This document shows positions 4,195-27,242 of a stretch of DNA of 64,000 bases, in pieces. The stretch is taken from IMG/VR virus record IMGVR_UViG_3300034062_006900, positions 1 to 64,000 of that record; one strand, given 5' to 3'. The notes beneath the pieces are model-generated. The model was not told the DNA's origin. It made no database searches and saw only the letters and a list, made by a program, of their open reading frames with translations. Source of the stretch: a virus. The position numbers and the translations under genes were made by a program. How positions within the stretch are numbered: position 1 is the stretch's first letter; each line of letters begins with the position of its first letter.

Positions 4195-4479
4195 ATGGAA
4201 AAAGATTTGGACATATTAGAAACAATCCTCAGGGACCAAAATTACGCAACAGAATACATTGCAATGATTTTACAACACTTGGTTAAGGAATTAGGACAAT
4301 CCTCACTTGAGAGATTTACCCCGAATTTTATTTACTCAGCATTAGCATTTGAACTTGGAAGAGCTAAATCAAAGGAGATTGCAGAATATTTCGAGGAGTT
4401 CAAAGAAAAAGGTAGTTACAGAACAACTCTTCAAAAAGCAATGGAAGATTCTCCATCATTTTCGAAATACACAAAATAA
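4195..4479 (+). CDS. Hypothetical helical protein, 94 aa
   Basis: Not recognised. It is predicted all-helical. Its N-terminus (MEKDLDILETILRDQ) partly resembles the short helix found at the start of several other proteins here, but lacks a clean (I/L)-x-E-Q end. Transcription is probably from the late motif at 4181. Its 3' end converges on the terminator of the large RNA. Confidence 0.65.
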   Translation: MEKDLDILETILRDQNYATEYIAMILQHLVKELGQSSLERFTPNFIYSALAFELGRAKSKEIAEYFEEFKEKGSYRTTLQKAMEDSPSFSKYTK

Positions 4480-4510
4480 AAAACCCCATCCGTAGAAACG
4501 AACAGGGTTT
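4474..4510 (-). terminator. Terminator of the large structured RNA
   Basis: On the minus strand AAACCC (4510-4505) pairs with GGGTTT (4486-4481), followed by a T-rich tract down to about 4474. The direction shows that the ORF-free region is transcribed on the minus strand. Confidence 0.65.
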
Positions 4511-5640
4511 GGCAAAATAGGTTGAGAATACACCATCTTGTGAGAGTCTTTACAGGAGATTATTTGTTTCCTCCGATTTCCACTTCCTTTTGAGAAGTAA
4601 CTCCCAGTCACGGTCAATTAGATTAACCAATCCTTAAGTCGTAATATACTCTATTTTTACTCATCACTCTTCTAGGTTGCCACCCAAACTCATCCTTGCG
4701 GGATTAGAGAACTTCCAAAACAATCGTATCGGGCTTGGGACCCTTTACGGCCATGAACAACTCATGACTAAGTAGTGACCTGTCTACCACGACTGACGAA
4801 CACTTTTCCTTTTAGTTTTAATGATTTGTTAGAATCCTTATTTTAACAAAGGGTTTGATTTGTGGATGTTAGATGTAGCGGTTCGTCAACGCAGCCATCC
4901 CATCTTTTGAACGAGACGATACTGAACTACACCTTGAAGTCTCCCGACCTCCATACTTTGAGTTTACTTCATAACTGACCACTTGGTAGAGGTCTGATAA
5001 GGAGAACAACAGCACCATCTGTTTGAACTCTTACCTTTCGGTTTTAAGTCTACTCTAATATTGAACTCCGCAATTGTATAGTTGGATGACCATACTTCTC
5101 ACAACAGCTCTACGAGTTATTCTTATTGGTGTTCCCACCTCAACCAAACGACCCACATCGCTCGGTCACCCAACCACTTTCTCTACAGTGTCACCCTCAA
5201 TACTCAAGGTTAGATGATATCCCGCTTGTCTACTCGAGCTCCGTTACCGAAGCCGCAACCGTTCCAATCAAGAACAAGTCACTTTATACTACTTTCATAG
5301 TTTATTTATGGACTATAGACCGCCCAATATCTTTATCAGTCATTTCAAACTCAACCCGAAGGTCTCATCTTCAACTCCTGAACGGATAATATTTTTATTC
5401 AAAGAACTTTAAAATTAATGAAGAAAAGAGGAAACTTTACGACCCACCGAAGTAGGAACCTTTACTACCCCTTTTCTTCATTTGTCTTACAAAATTAAGA
5501 ATGTTTTGGGAAACAGTCAAATTTTTGTAGAACTTTTTTTTTGAAGAACAATACAACAAATAATTCTACGGACCCCCTACTCTTAATAGGACAGGTTTAT
5601 TTGGTTATTCATTCAAAGAACTAAACGACTCTCGTCATTT
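4476..5640 (-). ncRNA. Large structured non-coding RNA, about 1.16 kb (GOLLD/ROOL-like size class)
   Basis: No credible protein gene lies between 4480 and 5735. On the minus strand the region has a consensus promoter (5647-5677), many local helices and a terminator. The clearest helix is a perfect 12-bp stem (5482-5471 with 5428-5417) capped by CCTAC-TTCG-GTGGG. Others are GACC-TTCG-GGTT (5364-5353), ACC-GAAA-GGT (5042-5033), AACAG/CTGTT (5023-5008), a CCCAA/TTGGG pair enclosing ATCC/GGAT (4739-4683) and GGTTAA/TTGACC (4628-4612). The UUCG and GNRA loops are correct only on this strand. Known giant phage RNAs (GOLLD, ROOL) also lie beside tRNA genes. I could not match a specific family, so the class is inference. 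Confidence 0.72.
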
Positions 5641-5646
5641 GTTTTT

Positions 5647-5677
5647 CAAAGATAGGATGAATTTTTCAATTCGTCAA
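5647..5677 (-). promoter_or_regulatory. Bacteroidota promoter of the large RNA
   Basis: TATCTTTG (5654-5647) with TTTGAC upstream (TTG at 5677-5675, 20-nt spacer). Predicted transcription start is about 5640. It closely resembles the promoter at 5972-6002, even between the boxes. Confidence 0.8.
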
Positions 5678-5736
5678 ATCTTTTTTAAAAAAAATAGGGA
5701 ACCTCGATTTTACGACCGCAGTCAACCTATTCTTAG

Positions 5737-5808
5737 TTGCGAAGGATGGATTCGAACCACCGACCTAAAGGTTATGAGCCTTCCGAGCTACCACTGCTCT
5801 ACCTCGCG
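5737..5808 (-). tRNA. tRNA-Met (CAT), initiator-like
   Basis: A full cloverleaf folds on the minus strand. It has a 7-bp acceptor stem, D stem GAGC/GCTC, anticodon stem GAAGG/CCTTT with loop CTCATAA (anticodon CAT), a 5-nt variable loop, and T stem GGTGG/CCATC with loop TTCGAAT. The first acceptor pair is C1-A72, a mismatch that marks bacterial initiator tRNAs and blocks elongation use. The three G:C pairs usual at the base of the initiator anticodon stem are incomplete (A-T, G-C, G-C). The 3' end reads ACTA after A72, so CCA is not encoded. It shares a transcript with the structured element at 5821-5888. Confidence 0.88.
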
Positions 5809-5820
5809 ATATATCTTTAT

Positions 5821-5888
5821 GATTACAAACCCACTTCCCCACGGTCACCTATCCACGTCATGCGCTGGTTGAACCAGCGGGTGTAATC
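5821..5888 (-). ncRNA. Structured RNA element upstream of the tRNA
   Basis: A 68-nt element closed by a perfect GATTACA/TGTAATC stem (5888-5882 with 5827-5821), continued by CCC/GGG. It contains a strong CGCTGG/CCAGCG hairpin (5879-5863) and a G-rich distal part. It ends 12 nt before the tRNA. It could be a processing signal, a small regulatory RNA or part of a larger fold; I do not recognise the family. Confidence 0.55.
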
Positions 5889-5918
5889 AATATTTTTAAG
5901 AACTTATTTAGAAAATAA

Positions 5919-5961
5919 GTCCCACAAGCTTATGAATCTCTCGATAAAACACTTGTGGGAC
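5919..5961 (-). repeat. Perfect 10-bp inverted repeat at the tRNA transcript start
   Basis: GTCCCACAAG and CTTGTGGGAC form a 10-bp stem, followed on the minus strand by a second stem ACTTATTT/AAATAAGT. It begins within a few nt of the predicted start of the tRNA transcript, so it probably forms a stabilising 5' hairpin. Confidence 0.65.
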
Positions 5962-5971
5962 ATTTGTTTCA

Positions 5972-6002
5972 CAAAGATAAGTAGAATTTTTGGTTCAGTC
6001 AA
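5972..6002 (-). promoter_or_regulatory. Bacteroidota promoter of the tRNA transcript
   Basis: TATCTTTG (5979-5972) and TTTGAC with TTG at 6002-6000, 20-nt spacer. Predicted start is about 5965. Confidence 0.8.
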
Positions 6003-19962: not shown

Positions 19963-20807
19963 TGAAATTTATACCCATATTAGAAACTGTTATTTTAGAA
20001 CAAAAGAGATTTAAGTTTGACCCCGAGACATATGCAAATATGGTAAGAATCACTGAGAAGTTATGGGGATTAAGAAATAAAGAATTGACAAGAAAGACAC
20101 AAGTTGATGGGTTTAAATTCAAAACTTCTGATGGAACTGACGGTTATGTCAAAATAATTATTAACCCAAGATTAAAATATATTGGATATATGGATACAAG
20201 ACCTAAGGATTCTCGTGACCCAATGGATTTTGTAATGGAAGTTCAACCAAAAGAATATGTTTCGAAGAAGAATTTATTCTTAACGATATACCATGAAATG
20301 CTTCACGCTACTGACCCATCACAATCAACAAAACTTAACCAAAAGTATCAGACAACATACAACGAAAAAAGTGACAAACAGTATTGGGGCCATCCTATCG
20401 AGTTCAGAGCAATTACAAATGAATTCTTGGAAGGTTTGGTTTTAGAATATAAGAGAAGATTCGGTAGACTTAGAAATCAAGAAAACAGAAAGTTTCTTTC
20501 TAAATCCCTTAAGAATATTCTAAACTACTTTGCTAAAGGTGAACCCTTATCTAAATTATCTCTTGATGTTATTAGCAGAATAAATGATGAAAATGTTTTA
20601 GATAATAAAATATCTCAACTTGTTTCTGATATGCCAACAGATTTCCCTGGTGTCTCTGAATTTATGGGCACAAAGGAGGAACCTTATTACATCACATACA
20701 TTGAATTAATTAAGAAACATAATCCTGAAATATGGAAAAGATTCTTAACCATGTTATACAATACATCTTATGAGATTGAAGATATTCTAAAAGAAAAAGG
20801 GGTTTAA
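19959..20807 (+). CDS. Zinc metallopeptidase-like protein (HEMLH) with N-terminal tag
   Basis: A 282-aa protein. It begins [18 protein letters not shown], an excellent copy of the tag (I-L-E-Q). Residues near 109 read [10 protein letters not shown], an HExxH site with a following D, and [13 protein letters not shown] may supply the third ligand. The fold would be a small metzincin- or SprT-like protease. It overlaps the upstream gene by ATGA and ends in a terminator that also serves the convergent fibre genes. Confidence 0.65.
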
Positions 20808-20824
20808 ATTAACCCCTTTTCTTT
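20795..20824. terminator. Bidirectional terminator between convergent operons
   Basis: GGGGTT...AACCCC stem with A tract before and T tract after. The stop codons of both convergent genes (20804-20807) lie in its loop. Confidence 0.85.
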
Positions 20825-22843
20825 TGCTATAATTTCTAATGTTTCTAATTTAGACTCGCTATCATCAAGAATAGCTGATTGTTCTTTAATTGCTTCTAAA
20901 CATAACGCAATCATATCATAATACTTTATCTGATAATATGAATTTTCACTATCTGATTTGAAGACTAATTCAGGAACTACGTGTTGAACTTCTTGTGCAA
21001 TAAAACCTATTTCACGTTCAGTCTCTCTATTTTCTGCTTGATAATCAAAATTCTTCCAATCGTAGTATACACCTCTAAGTTTGAGAACTTTATCTAATGC
21101 TCCTTCGATGGTTTTAATTTCTTTCTTAAATCTTTTATCTGACGGTCCTGGTGCACCTGTTGCTCCTTGAGCACCTTGTGGTCCTCCTGGTCCTGGTCCT
21201 CCTGCAGGTCCTTGTCCTCCTGGAACTCCCTGGAAACCTGTTGGTCCTCCAGCTCCTCCCGGTCCTATAAATCCTGTAGGTCCAGTTGCACCTTGAGCCC
21301 CTTGTGGACCACCACCTCCACCAGGTCCCCCAGCACCTTGAGCACCTGTTGCTCCACCACCTCCTTGAGCTCCTTGGAATCCTACAGGGCCTTGAGGACC
21401 TTGGGCTCCTTGTGGACCTTGTCCTCCTTGAGAACCTTGCGAACCTTGTGGCCCAACAGAGCCTTGTCCTCCTTGCGGACCACGTCCACCTTGTGAACCT
21501 TGTGGTCCTACGGCACCTTGTGAACCTTGTGGACCTGTCGGTCCTTGAGCTCCTTGAGCACCCTGTCCACCAGCAGGACCTTGTCCACCTTGAGGACCTC
21601 GTCCTCCTTGTGAACCTTGTGGTCCTACGGCACCTTGTGAACCTTGTGGACCTGTCGGTCCTTGAGCTCCTTGAGCACCCTGTCCACCAGCAGGACCTTG
21701 TCCTCCTTGGGGACCTCGTCCTCCTTGCGAACCTTGTGGTCCAACAGCACCTTGAGCACCTTGAGGACCCGTTGGTCCTTGAGAACCTTGGGCTCCTTGA
21801 CCTCCTCCAGGTCCTTGAGCTCCTTGCGAACCTTGACCTCCTTGAGAACCTTGTGGTCCTACAGGACCTTGAGCTCCTTGTGGACCTTGTCCCCCTTGAG
21901 AACCTTGGGCTCCTTGACCTCCTGTTGGTCCCTGAGCACCTTGCGAACCTTGACCTCCTTGAGCACCTTGAGCTCCAACAGCTCCTTGGGCACCTTGCCC
22001 ACCTTGTGAACCTTGACCTCCTTGAGCACCTTGTCCACCTGCAGCCCCACCAGCACCTTGAGCACCTTGACCACCTTGTGAACCTTGTGGTCCTACTGGT
22101 CCTTGGGCTCCTTGTGGTCCTTGACCACCTTGAGCACCTTGAGCACCTTGACCTCCCGCGGTTCCTTGAGCACCTTGTGAACCTTGACCTCCTTGAGCTC
22201 CTTGAGGTCCAGTATCACCTTGTGAACCCTGTAATCCTTGACCTCCTTGAGCACCTTGTGCTCCTTGACCTCCTGTCGGACCTTGGAACCCTTGAGCACC
22301 CTGTGCACCAGCGGCTCCCTGAGCACCCTGACCACCTGTTGTTCCCTGAGCACCTTGACTTCCTTGTGCACCGGCAGTTCCTTGAGCACCTGTTCCTCCT
22401 GAGTTTCCTTGAGCACCTTGGAAACCTTGAGCACCTGCTAGTCCTTGAGCTCCTTGAGCACCTGTGGGACCTTGGAAACCTTGAGCTCCTGTTGCACCTT
22501 CAGTTCCTTGTGCACCTTGTCCTCCAACAACTCCTTGCGACCCAGTAAAACCTGAAGCACCTTGAAAACCTTGAGGACCTTTCGGTTGTTGGTTTCCACG
22601 CCATCCTGTAGAGTTTATGATAGGGTTAACCGCAAAATTTGTGATACTAGCAAATCTGAGGTCAGCACTAGTAATCCTAAAGTTTGGATAAGAATTATCA
22701 ATGTTCAGATTCCATGATTTTGCACCTTCGAAAAATCTTAAGGTTCCAGATTGTATTCTCCACCCAATAATTGTATCATCAAAACTTTGAAAGTTTATTA
22801 TAGGGACAACGGGAATTATATTAATATTTTCATTTCCGGGCAT
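20804..22843 (-). CDS. Collagen-like tail fibre with S74 chaperone domain, fibre 3
   Basis: A 679-aa virion protein. The first 95 residues are a beta-rich head. Residues 96-580 are Gly-x-y triplets, mostly GAQGxQG, which form a collagen triple helix. From about 581 ([20 protein letters not shown]) a Peptidase_S74 domain follows, with [16 protein letters not shown] and a C-terminal coiled coil. S74 domains trimerise fibres and cut themselves off. It is the last of three tandem fibre genes joined by TAATG. A 117-bp internal repeat (21491-21841) shows growth by unequal crossing-over. Confidence 0.85.
21491..21841 (-). repeat. 117-bp tandem repeat in fibre 3
   Basis: Three units start at 21491, 21608 and 21725, each 117 bp, or 39 residues (13 Gly-x-y triplets). 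The first two are nearly identical and the third has diverged. Confidence 0.75.
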
Positions 22844-24948
22844 TATATTAATTCTTTTAACACATTTATTCTTTCGAGTATTGACTCAATTTTTTTCTGA
22901 TTCTCTTGAACACTACCAACACCTATACTTACCATATAATTATATTGAACTGACTTATATCCATCATAATCTGTAAAAACAACTTCAGGTAAAACCTCTT
23001 CCAAATCTTGAGCAATAAATCCTATCGAAGAACCTGTAAAAGCAAACTTATTTAAATTTAGTTTATTGTTCTTTATTTTATCATGTTCTTCATCCCATGT
23101 AAAAGAAACTCCTTCAATTTGTTTTGCAATTGATAACGGATTCTCAATTTTCTTGATATTATCTTTTAACCTTCTGTCCGATGGTGGTCCTGTTGGCCCT
23201 TGAGCACCTTCAGGCCCTGTTCCTCCTGGAGGACCTGGATTACCTGTAGGTCCTGGAGGACCTGCAGCTCCTGGACCTCCTGGCCCACCTGCTGGTCCTG
23301 GAGGTCCTTGTAGTCCTTTAGGACCTGGTGCACCTGTTGGTCCTGTTCCACCTCCTGGTCCTGGAGGACCTTGAGCACCTTGACCTCCTGTTCCACCTGT
23401 TGCACCAGCAGCTCCTCCTGTTCCTGTAAATCCTTGAGCCCCTATAAAACCTGGCGGTCCTACAGCTCCTTGAGCACCTTGAGTTGAACTTTGAGAACCT
23501 TGAGCTCCTTGGAATCCTGTAACGCCTTGAGCTCCTTGAACACCACTTTGAGAACCTTGGGCACCTGTTGGTCCTGTTGGACCAGGAGCTCCTTGAGCAC
23601 CTGTATTTCCTCCTTGCGAACCTTGAGCTCCTTGGAATCCTGTAACACCTTGAGCTCCTTGAACTCCACTTTGAGCACCTTGGGCTCCTGTTGGTCCTGT
23701 TGGACCTGGAGCTCCTTGAGCACCTGTATTTCCTCCCTGTGAACCTTGAGCTCCTTGGAATCCTGTAACTCCCTGAGCACCTTGAGTTGAACTTTGAGAG
23801 CCTTGTGCTCCTGTTGGTCCTGTTGGCCCTATATTACCTTGAGCTCCTTGACTAGGTCCTTGTGAACCTTGAGCACCTTGAGCACCTGTGTTTCCTGTTG
23901 CACCTGGTGTTGTGCTTTGAGAACCTTGGGCTCCTGTGAAACCTGCAGGTCCTGTCGCTCCTTGAGCTCCTTGCGTCACTCCTGTAGGACCCGGATTACC
24001 TGTAAATCCTTTTGGTCCTGTTGCACCCGCAACTGCACTTTGAGCACCTTGTGCTCCTGTGCTACCAGGTGCACCTATATTACCTTGAGCACCTGTATTG
24101 GCTCCTTGAGGACCTTGTGCTCCTTGTGCTCCTGTATTACCAGTCGCACCCGCATTTCCACTTTGAGCTCCTTGAGCACCTGTGAAACCTGTCGGACCTG
24201 TTGCTCCTTGTGCTCCTGTATTGGCACCTTGTGTTCCTTGTGCACCTGTATTACCTGTTGGACCTGTAGCACCTGCCGTTGTGCTTTGGGCACCCTGAGC
24301 ACCTTGGAAACCTGTCGGTCCTGTTGCACCTTGAGCACCCTGTGTAACTCCTTGGGGGCCAGGAAAACCTGCAAATCCTTTCGGACCTTGAGAACCCTGA
24401 GCACCTGTATTTGCACCTTGTGTTCCTTGAGCACCTGTATTACCTGTAGCTCCCTGAGAACCTTGTGCTCCCTGAAACACTCCCTGTGCACCTTGAGCCC
24501 CTGTAAATCCTGTGTCTCCCTGAGCACCTGATGCACCTGAAACATTACTTGTTGGTCCCTTAGGACCTGTTGCACCTTTCGGACCCTGAGCACCTTGTGC
24601 TCCACCAGCACCTCCCTGTGCACCTTGAGCACCTTGAGCACCTGTGATACCTTGAGCTCCCGTGTCTCCTGTTAAACCCTTAATACCATCCAATGGACCA
24701 ATCCATACACCTACGGTGTTTATCATGGCAACACCACCAACGTAAGTAATACCATTTGTAATTGAAGCTCCTGATGATGTTATGTTGGTATTACTTATTT
24801 CGAAACCTGCAGATACGGTTGCTGAAGATAAAGACAAAGCACCCGTAGACTTAACGTTGAATTGTAATTTAGACGTGTCATCATCAAAAACAATATGAGG
24901 GTCTGAATTTCCAGTTGTTCCTGTAGGATATATAATAACATTAGGCAT
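22843..24948 (-). CDS. Collagen-like tail fibre with S74 chaperone domain, fibre 2
   Basis: A 701-aa protein built like its neighbours: a beta-rich head of about 90 residues, a Gly-x-y shaft (residues 92-590), then [20 protein letters not shown] opening a Peptidase_S74 domain with [15 protein letters not shown] and a coiled-coil tail. Its shaft alternates with short polar interruptions (NTGAQG, STTAGA). It shares one base (TAATG) with each neighbour. A different head from the other two suggests a different attachment or receptor role. A 123-bp repeat lies at 23495-23863. Confidence 0.85.
23495..23863 (-). repeat. 123-bp tandem repeat in fibre 2
   Basis: Units begin at 23495, 23618 and 23741, spaced 123 bp (41 residues). 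The period differs from the 117 bp of the other fibres. Confidence 0.7.
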
Positions 24949-27242
24949 TATGATAATTTGTTTTCAAGTTCGTTAATTTGTTCTTTGATATCTTCTATAA
25001 ATACTTGTTGTGATTTTATAGCCTCAACCAACACACTATTCAATTTATTGTAATCAATATAATAATATCCTTCTCCATTTATTGATACCACTTCAGGAAA
25101 ATATAATCTCACATTCTGAGCAATTAGTCCGATAGCGTGAAGTCTTTGATGTTTTTCGAAATATGCATATTCAGATTTATTTAAATTAGTATTCCAATCA
25201 TACTCTACCGCCTCCAACATCATTACCTTTTCTAATGCGTCATATATTGTTTCAATTTTTGTTTTTAAATTGACATCAGAAAAGTAACTACCGCAATCAG
25301 AATTATAATTTCCAAACCCACAAGTATTAGCAACATCATAACACACGCTTGATTCTACGGCTCTAGTCCAATAACTGTTCCAATCACAAGTTCCATTGAC
25401 ACAGTTTGTAACATTAAGATATTTGGCTTCAAGCATACCTGTTGCAGCATTATTTTGGCGAACAGATTGAGTGGACGGCATATTACACGCCGCTGTACAG
25501 CTACCACCCACAAAAAAAGCATATATTCCACAGGTTACTGCTGCAGGTCCCGTAGCACCCTGTGCTCCTTGAGCACCTGTTGGGCCTGTTGGACCTGAAG
25601 GTCCTGGTCCTCCCGTTGGGCCACCACCACCCTGAGGACCTCTTGGTCCTGGCGGACCATCAACACCTTGGAATCCTTGTCCTCCTTGAGCACCTTGAGC
25701 ACCCTGTCCACCTCCACCACCTGGAGGTCCTTGAGCACCTTGGCTTCCTTGGCCTCCACCACCTCCGGGACCGCCTTGTGGTCCTCTTGGTCCTACAAAA
25801 CCTACAGGACCACCTGGTCCTCCCGGACCTGTCGCACCTGTGGGTCCTAATAATCCTGTGTCTCCTCCTGCTCCTGTCGGACCAGCAGCACCTGTAGGCC
25901 CTAATAGACCTTGAGCTCCTGTTGGTCCTGTAGGTCCTAATGGTCCTGTTGCACCTTGTGCTCCAGGATGTCCTGTTCCTCCACCCGCTCCTGTCGGACC
26001 AGCAGCACCTGTTGGTCCTAATAGACCTTGAGCTCCTGTTGGTCCTGTAGGTCCTAATGGTCCTGTTGCACCTTGTGCTCCAGGATGTCCTGTTCCTCCA
26101 CCCGCTCCTGTCGGACCAGCAGCACCTGTTGGTCCTAATAGACCTTGAGCTCCTGTTGGTCCTGTAGGTCCTAATGGTCCTGTTGCACCTTGTGCTCCAG
26201 GATGTCCTGTTCCACCTTGTGAACCCGTGGCTCCCTTTGGTCCTGTCGGTCCTAATAAACCTGTTGCACCCGTCGGTCCTGTTGGGCCTCCTGGTCCTGT
26301 AGCACCCGTCGGTCCTGGAGGACCGTCTACTCCTTGAAATCCTGTGGCTCCTTTTGGTCCTGTGGGTCCTAAAGCACCTTGAGCTCCCACAGCTCCACCT
26401 GGACCTGTTCCTCCTGTCGCACCTTGTGCTCCAGCAAATCCTGTAGCACCTTGAGCTCCAACAGCTCCACCTGGACCTGTTGCACCTATGGCTCCTTGAG
26501 CTCCCGCAGAACCTCCTGGCCCTGTTGGTCCTGTAGCACCTTGAGCACCTGGATTTCCCGTTCCTCCTTGAGACCCCGTTGCACCCTTTGGTCCTGTTGG
26601 TCCTAATAAACCTTGAGCACCTGTTGGTCCTGTTGCACCTGTTGCACCAGCAGCTCCTGTTGGTCCTGGTGGACCATCAACTCCTTGAAATCCTTGAGCA
26701 CCTGTGTTACCCGTGGCACCTTGAGCACCTGGATGTCCTGTTGCACCTTGAGCACCCACATTACCCTGTGCACCTATTGAACCTTGAGGTCCTAAGTTAC
26801 CCTGTGCTCCTATTGGACCTTGAGGTCCTGTATTTCCTTGTGAACCCGTTGGTCCAGGAGAACCATCAACTCCTTGAAAACCTTGAGCCCCTTGAGCTCC
26901 CACAGCACCTTGAGCTCCATTATGCCCTGTCGAGCCCTGAGCTCCTTGAGGACCTTGAGCTCCTTGAAGACCTTGGGCACCTGTAAGTCCACTCAGTGAA
27001 CCTACCCAATCAGCTGTTCCATTAATTACCTGAACTCCACCTACCGTATAGTTGTCTATAACATTAATAGTATTTCCTGACACAATTCCACTCGCTAATG
27101 CAAGACTCGGTGTAGAACCGAAAGTAAGTGTTCCTGTCGTTAACATTCTAACACGAATACTAGCACTATTAATGAAATCAATATATGGGACCCTATCAGG
27201 AGTTCTAAAAATCGCGTTACTTGGGACAATTGTTATTGGCAT
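24948..27242 (-). CDS. Collagen-like tail fibre with S74 chaperone domain, fibre 1
   Basis: A 764-aa protein, first of the three fibre genes and directly behind a late motif (27260). The head (residues 1-85) is followed by a Gly-x-y shaft to about residue 560. It then has an unusual Cys-rich insert ([20 protein letters not shown] and more, eight or more Cys) before the S74 domain ([38 protein letters not shown]). The insert is absent from the other two fibres and may form a disulfide-bonded tip or receptor-binding module (inference). A 117-bp triple repeat lies at 25864-26215. Confidence 0.85.
25864..26215 (-). repeat. 117-bp tandem repeat in fibre 1
   Basis: Three almost identical 117-bp units start near 25864, 25981 and 26098. 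Their near-identity implies recent duplication. Confidence 0.8.

Follow-up and report, generated by a model that had tools for sequence, protein, structure and literature searches.

GOLLD is one of the few RNAs known to form a cage made of RNA only. A member of the family, env-38, is 833 nt long, 420 nt of which form its 5′ domain and 413 nt its 3′ domain, and was seen by cryo-EM as a 14-mer cage (PMC12286853); ribosome binding of GOLLD has also been reported (PMC12286853), and in a L. brevis prophage GOLLD was reported to be dispensable for phage production (PMC7567579). Among the marks of the family are a 14-mer cage joined through kissing-loop and A-minor bridges, and expression as a single long RNA that is not translated and whose level rises during lysis. 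ROOL is also a giant phage RNA that lies near tRNAs and forms a cage. The other system that bears on the locus described here is the leader of rRNA operons, in which boxB and boxA sequences stand between the promoter and the rRNA, and in which the nascent boxA recruits NusB and S10, whereupon the polymerase becomes Rho-resistant (PMC10250234, PMC5725501). When boxA was placed before a synthetic CRISPR array the amount of precursor RNA rose about 10-fold (PMC7862264).

The DNA analysed here (the window) comprises positions 1 to 64,000 of IMG/VR record IMGVR_UViG_3300034062_006900, a virus contig of 76,752 bases, and its RNA gene therefore has the phage location of GOLLD. The stretch at 4480–5735 encodes a full-length GOLLD RNA, a member of the known family and no new class, because cmscan matched RF02032 over the complete model (1–416) on the minus strand at 4934–4519 with 320.6 bits (E 1e-92), twice the Rfam cut-off of 150 bits for this family. 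A preliminary description, made by reading the sequence, had proposed a giant RNA like GOLLD or ROOL, either a new member or a new class, to be checked against the Rfam covariance models. The models matched GOLLD from end to end whilst ROOL gave no match at the gathering threshold in the window, nor at E up to 1 over 4300–6000, so membership of GOLLD stands and ROOL or a new class is ruled out by the Rfam results. That the 5′ domain falls outside the Rfam model is what could still be said for a giant RNA class other than GOLLD, but with RF02032 matched whole and ROOL absent the probability of such a class is practically nil.

Several other elements had been read correctly in the preliminary description. 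The stretch from 4480 to 5735 holds no plausible protein gene, the sense-strand open reading frames being at most 53 aa long, and across 38 relatives the frames are slightly longer than in shuffled sequences and no more, with none conserved. The consensus Bacteroidota promoter was found on the minus strand (TTGACG, a 17-nt spacer and TATCTTTG), as were the terminator with its 13-pair stem (4510–4481) and the UUCG and GAAA loops. A ‘perfect 12-bp stem’ needed amendment: the stem is real, but it has 15 pairs, G–U included, between 5482–5468 and 5431–5417. A second promoter, P2 (5520–5490), had been overlooked. The coordinates of all features are collected in the table.

Table. Features of the GOLLD locus and the adjoining tRNA gene (positions in the window).
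Feature	Position	Strand	Basis
Degenerate boxA-like GTTCTTAAAAA in tRNA leader (relatives have e.g. GTTCTTTAACA; weak alone)	5893..5903	−	
tRNA-Met(CAT), C1:A72 mismatch, A11:U24, initiator-type	5736..5808	−	
Promoter P1, TTGACG-17-TATCTTTG	5647..5677	−	
Small hairpin AAATGAC-GAGA-GTCGTTT, directly before boxA-like motif 1	5623..5640	−	
boxA-like motif 1, GTTCTTTGAA	5612..5621	−	
Short conserved element ACCTGTCCTATTAAGAGTAGGGGGT between motif 1 and P2, probable hairpin	5572..5596	−	Alignment
Promoter P2, TTGACT...TAATTTTG	5490..5520	−	Read in sequence
Long leader hairpin, 15-pair stem, symmetric 11x11 internal loop, C(UUCG)G cap	5417..5482	−	Fold
boxA-like motif 2, GTTCTTTGAA, immediately 5′ of GOLLD body	5398..5407	−	
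GOLLD 5′ domain, optional UUCG hairpin at its start	~4935..5397	−	Alignment A1, outside Rfam model
GOLLD 3′ domain, including A+U-rich linker (~4860–4800)	4519..4934	−	Rfam RF02032, cmscan
Intrinsic terminator, 13-pair stem and T run	4471..4510	−	Fold, z = −4.7

Compared with GOLLD as far as it is described after Weinberg (2009) in PMC12286853, the window RNA has in common the 3′ model, the layout of a 5′ and a 3′ domain, the size, the variable linker, the phage setting and a Met-tRNA neighbour, and it differs in detail only, namely by its tandem promoters and its leader with a hairpin and a boxA-like motif. Env-38 likewise lies downstream of a Met-tRNA and its domain sizes match those of the window RNA, although the env-38 cage was seen by cryo-EM whereas the window RNA is known from sequence alone. 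Elsewhere in the window, at 20804–27242 on the minus strand, are three adjacent proteins of ~680–760 aa with long collagen-like glycine repeats and C-terminal chaperone-like domains, which are probably tail fibres.

About 120 GOLLD loci were gathered from IMG/VR using a conserved 3′-domain pattern, a longer one that replaced a 14-base anchor pattern which had given mainly chance matches. Five matches in genome contigs (L211–L215) were also due to chance and are not GOLLD. No plasmid with a similar sequence was found, and a search of 399 Pseudomonadota genomes gave no GOLLD match, which is no evidence of absence since that search matched nothing anywhere. The leader motif was the starting point of an alignment of 38 divergent loci that runs through to the end (alignment A1; pairwise identity 0.60–0.95, median 0.70), and the RNAalifold consensus fold of these 38 rows has 202 predicted pairs, 139 of them with two-sided compensatory changes. 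These compensatory pairs lie in the 3′ domain and also in the 5′ domain, which is absent from the Rfam model. Covariation is seen from column 195 of the alignment on, which gives the window RNA the separate, structured and less conserved 5′ domain of ~400 nt that characterises GOLLD. Covariation among homologues had been set beforehand as a test of the RNA reading, which survives with covarying pairs in abundance.

The leader upstream of the GOLLD body is organised as a tandem cassette, with P1, the small hairpin and motif 1 followed by P2, the long hairpin, motif 2 and GOLLD. Because of the second promoter, two nested transcripts of ~1.0 and ~1.17 kb are likely, as judged from the sequence. 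P2 is comparatively conserved and its position is kept among 12 aligned sequences; motif 2 lies ~80 nt past it, against a usual 28 nt. The long leader hairpin is well supported against shuffled sequences (z = −6.1) and carries GUAAAG on both sides of its internal loop, a pattern (11x11 loop with GUAAAG) that recurs in several close relatives and is replaced in others. The ACCTGTCCTATTAAGAGTAGGGGGT element is nearly invariant in relatives whilst its surroundings vary; its exact pattern was found in 12 viral loci, and it has no match in Rfam.

The record of 76,752 bases has just two copies of the 10-base motif GTTCTTTGAA, both on the GOLLD strand and in the GOLLD leader, and away from GOLLD neighbourhoods we counted 5 copies in 781,378 strand-bases. 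Its core GTTCTTTGA was present in 42 of 45 divergent GOLLD clusters at 450–850 nt upstream of the 3′-domain anchor, where it is the commonest 9-mer, and in none of the 45 in the next 400 nt downstream; allowing G or A at position 8, GTTCTTT(G/A)A stands at the start in 43/45 clusters, although the loci are mutually related and such counts overstate independence. As loci were selected by their 3′ domain, the leader motif was not favoured by the selection. All 38 rows of A1, which were trimmed at the motif, have GTTCTTT without a change, and the G and AA that flank the core are conserved. Two loci have only variants at the motif's place, GTTCTTTTAAA in L154 and GTTCTTTGTTT in L178, and in a further locus, L252, the GOLLD leader has GTTCTTTTACA behind a TTGACC..TATACT promoter.

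A strict Bacteroidota promoter (TTG-N16-22-TAnnTTTG) ends 18–39 nt before the motif in 24/44 clusters, at a median of 28 nt, as opposed to 0.07 in shuffled sequences, and a hairpin ends 0–4 nt before it at 19/57 GOLLD sites (shuffles 1.14, maximum 5), with loops that are mostly AANG or GAGA. In a stem test of 15 sequences pairing was 100%, these being 14-mers chosen for folding, two of them from host leaders, so that the comparison with shuffled sequences is the one relied upon. We also searched viral contigs in the reverse direction, using a pattern of promoter start, spacer and motif that contained no GOLLD sequence: among the matches listed, 128 of 134 sites lead into GOLLD, as do 87 of the 90 distinct sites with at least 300 nt downstream, and the remaining distinct sites among these matches are followed by arrays of tRNAs or of other RNAs. 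In some of the GOLLDs found in this way, such as L353 (293 bits), the 5′ domain differs strongly. Loci L349, L363, L366 and L385 are, like L353, GOLLDs of this kind, with the same promoter, hairpin and boxA leader.

Among controls from outside the Bacteroidota, no boxA was found in the GOLLDs of the Acinetobacter phages Herod and YMC13/03/R2096, whose genes lie inside tRNA operons, nor at the giant RNA of the Vibrio phage ICP1, which is not GOLLD by Rfam; the leader is thus a feature of the phages with Bacteroidota-type promoters and no general trait of giant RNAs. The ICP1 RNA (L404:98–1108, minus strand), abundant, non-coding and ~0.8 kb long, is neither GOLLD nor ROOL in Rfam and may represent an undescribed family.

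Sequences resembling the motif are found in the rRNA leaders of Bacteroidota. The published boxA consensus, GYTCTTTAANA (PMC5725501), is gamma-proteobacterial; many Bacteroidota have GTTCTTTGA as their rRNA boxA and others GTTCATTGA or GATCTTTGA. A number of Bacteroidota rRNA leaders contain GTTCTTTGAAA or near variants, mostly 66–180 nt ahead of 16S, and in one order G[TA]TCTTT[GA]A was found upstream of 16S in 23 of 31 leaders. The motif GTTCTTTGAAATATTGAAATTACAG in the GOLLD leader of a huge phage (L122), where hairpin and motif come directly after a tRNA, is close to another type of Bacteroidota rRNA leader, GTTCATTGAAAATATTGAAATTGACAGCG. A hairpin stands just before the motif in 14/31 host rRNA leaders, a partly different set of 31 (shuffles 1.96, maximum 7); AACG and AAAG are among its loops, so that the AANG type is common to GOLLD and host leaders. 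The motif core is thus identical in Bacteroidota rRNA leaders, the hairpin loops are similar, and the order of promoter, hairpin, boxA and long untranslated RNA is that of the rrn leaders with boxB and boxA (PMC10250234, PMC5725501). The site in the window combines what is expected of a boxA: a sequence like the rRNA boxA of many Bacteroidota, a position soon after a promoter and a long untranslated RNA behind it. The difference is that rrn leaders lie upstream of rRNA and the GOLLD leader upstream of a phage RNA, its role being predicted from sequence. In front of CRISPR arrays (Stringer et al., cited in PMC7862264) a boxA, in so far as it is described there, likewise stands in the leader of a long transcript that is non-coding and is not rRNA, but that array belongs to a cell and GOLLD is a structured phage RNA. 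Our search, mostly of literature available without subscription, found no work combining GOLLD and boxA, and the leader, with its tandem promoters, hairpin and boxA-like motif, appears to be the new part of this locus, for which we found no description in GOLLD.

The complete GOLLD gene in the window belongs to a phage whose promoters are of the Bacteroidota type, and we consider it probable that this phage uses the rRNA antitermination of its host (NusB/S10) to make the RNA. In such a scheme host RNA polymerase would initiate at P1 and P2, GTTCTTTGAA would be bound by host NusB and S10 as it emerges from the polymerase, and an rRNA-type antitermination complex would assemble on the enzyme; the untranslated 0.9-kb RNA would then be made fast and shielded from Rho like rRNA, and is predicted to fold and self-assemble into a homo-oligomeric cage resembling that of env-38. 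With somewhat less assurance, we lean towards the general proposition that Bacteroidota phages drive GOLLD through host rRNA antitermination, the leader copying the promoter, hairpin and boxA of an rrn leader, such that GOLLD would be made, and perhaps folded and handled, in the manner of rRNA.

Other roles for the motif were weighed against this proposal. GTTCTTTGAA might be part of the folded RNA, pairing with AAGGA of the 3′ domain or making cage contacts, with its likeness to boxA a coincidence: RNAalifold pairs UCUU with an invariant AAGG (columns 3–6 with 938–941) in nearly all 38 rows, and where the first hairpin is missing, as in L125 and L127, the motif borders directly on the structured domain. 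The UCUU–AAGG pairing is, however, without covariation, the motif does not keep a constant distance from the GOLLD body (the differences amount to tens of nt), and the other copy in the window, 214 nt upstream of this one, has a promoter and a hairpin to itself; moreover, the motif also occurs ahead of host 16S rRNA and of phage tRNA arrays with no GOLLD directly behind, all of which makes a structural role unlikely. The copies could alternatively act as a decoy, GOLLD leaders titrating NusB and S10 and so slowing host rRNA synthesis in infection, for which one may cite the two boxA copies of the longer transcript here and the abundance that giant phage RNAs can reach, above that of all other transcripts (ICP1; PMC7567579); but most relatives have a single copy right behind the promoter, which is how a cis-acting antitermination site is laid out, and we regard a decoy as improbable. 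Hardly credible, finally, is that GTTCTTTG represents the −7 element (TAnnTTTG) of a Bacteroidota promoter and no RNA signal, since it shares the TTTG of that consensus but lacks the TA, a proper promoter lies upstream at the spacing and frequency given above, the G and AA around the core are conserved, and in L122 hairpin and motif follow straight after a tRNA.

A C1:A72 mismatch and an A11:U24 pair are hallmarks of initiator tRNA, and both are present in the tRNA-Met of the window, whose anticodon stem has two G–C pairs rather than three. A tRNA-Met lies upstream of GOLLD in 16/45 clusters, with C1:A72 in 15 of the 16 (3′ end read from the sequences), and downstream in 8/45, where the type is more mixed. 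A promoter of its own and the degenerate boxA belong to the structured 5′ leader of the tRNA transcript (5809–5975, minus strand; z = −3.2). In other phages, a tRNA with anticodon TTA, which would read UAA stops, lies inside the GOLLD linker of the tRNA-rich phage L252 (L252:1065–1139, plus strand), and the L380 phage stretch carries GOLLD, many tRNAs and a tmRNA gene, with a boxA cassette ahead of a tRNA array. The reported ribosome binding and the adjoining initiator-type tRNA are hints that the role of GOLLD is linked to translation.

The boxA leader offers a concrete, testable hypothesis for how a long untranslated phage RNA could be made despite Rho, and it would add structured phage RNAs to the rRNA, CRISPR arrays and few mRNAs in which boxA is known. 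Taken with the initiator-type tRNA and ribosome binding, it steers functional work on GOLLD towards ribosome synthesis and translation initiation. If true, the synthesis of GOLLD, and possibly its function, would be tied to ribosome production during infection.
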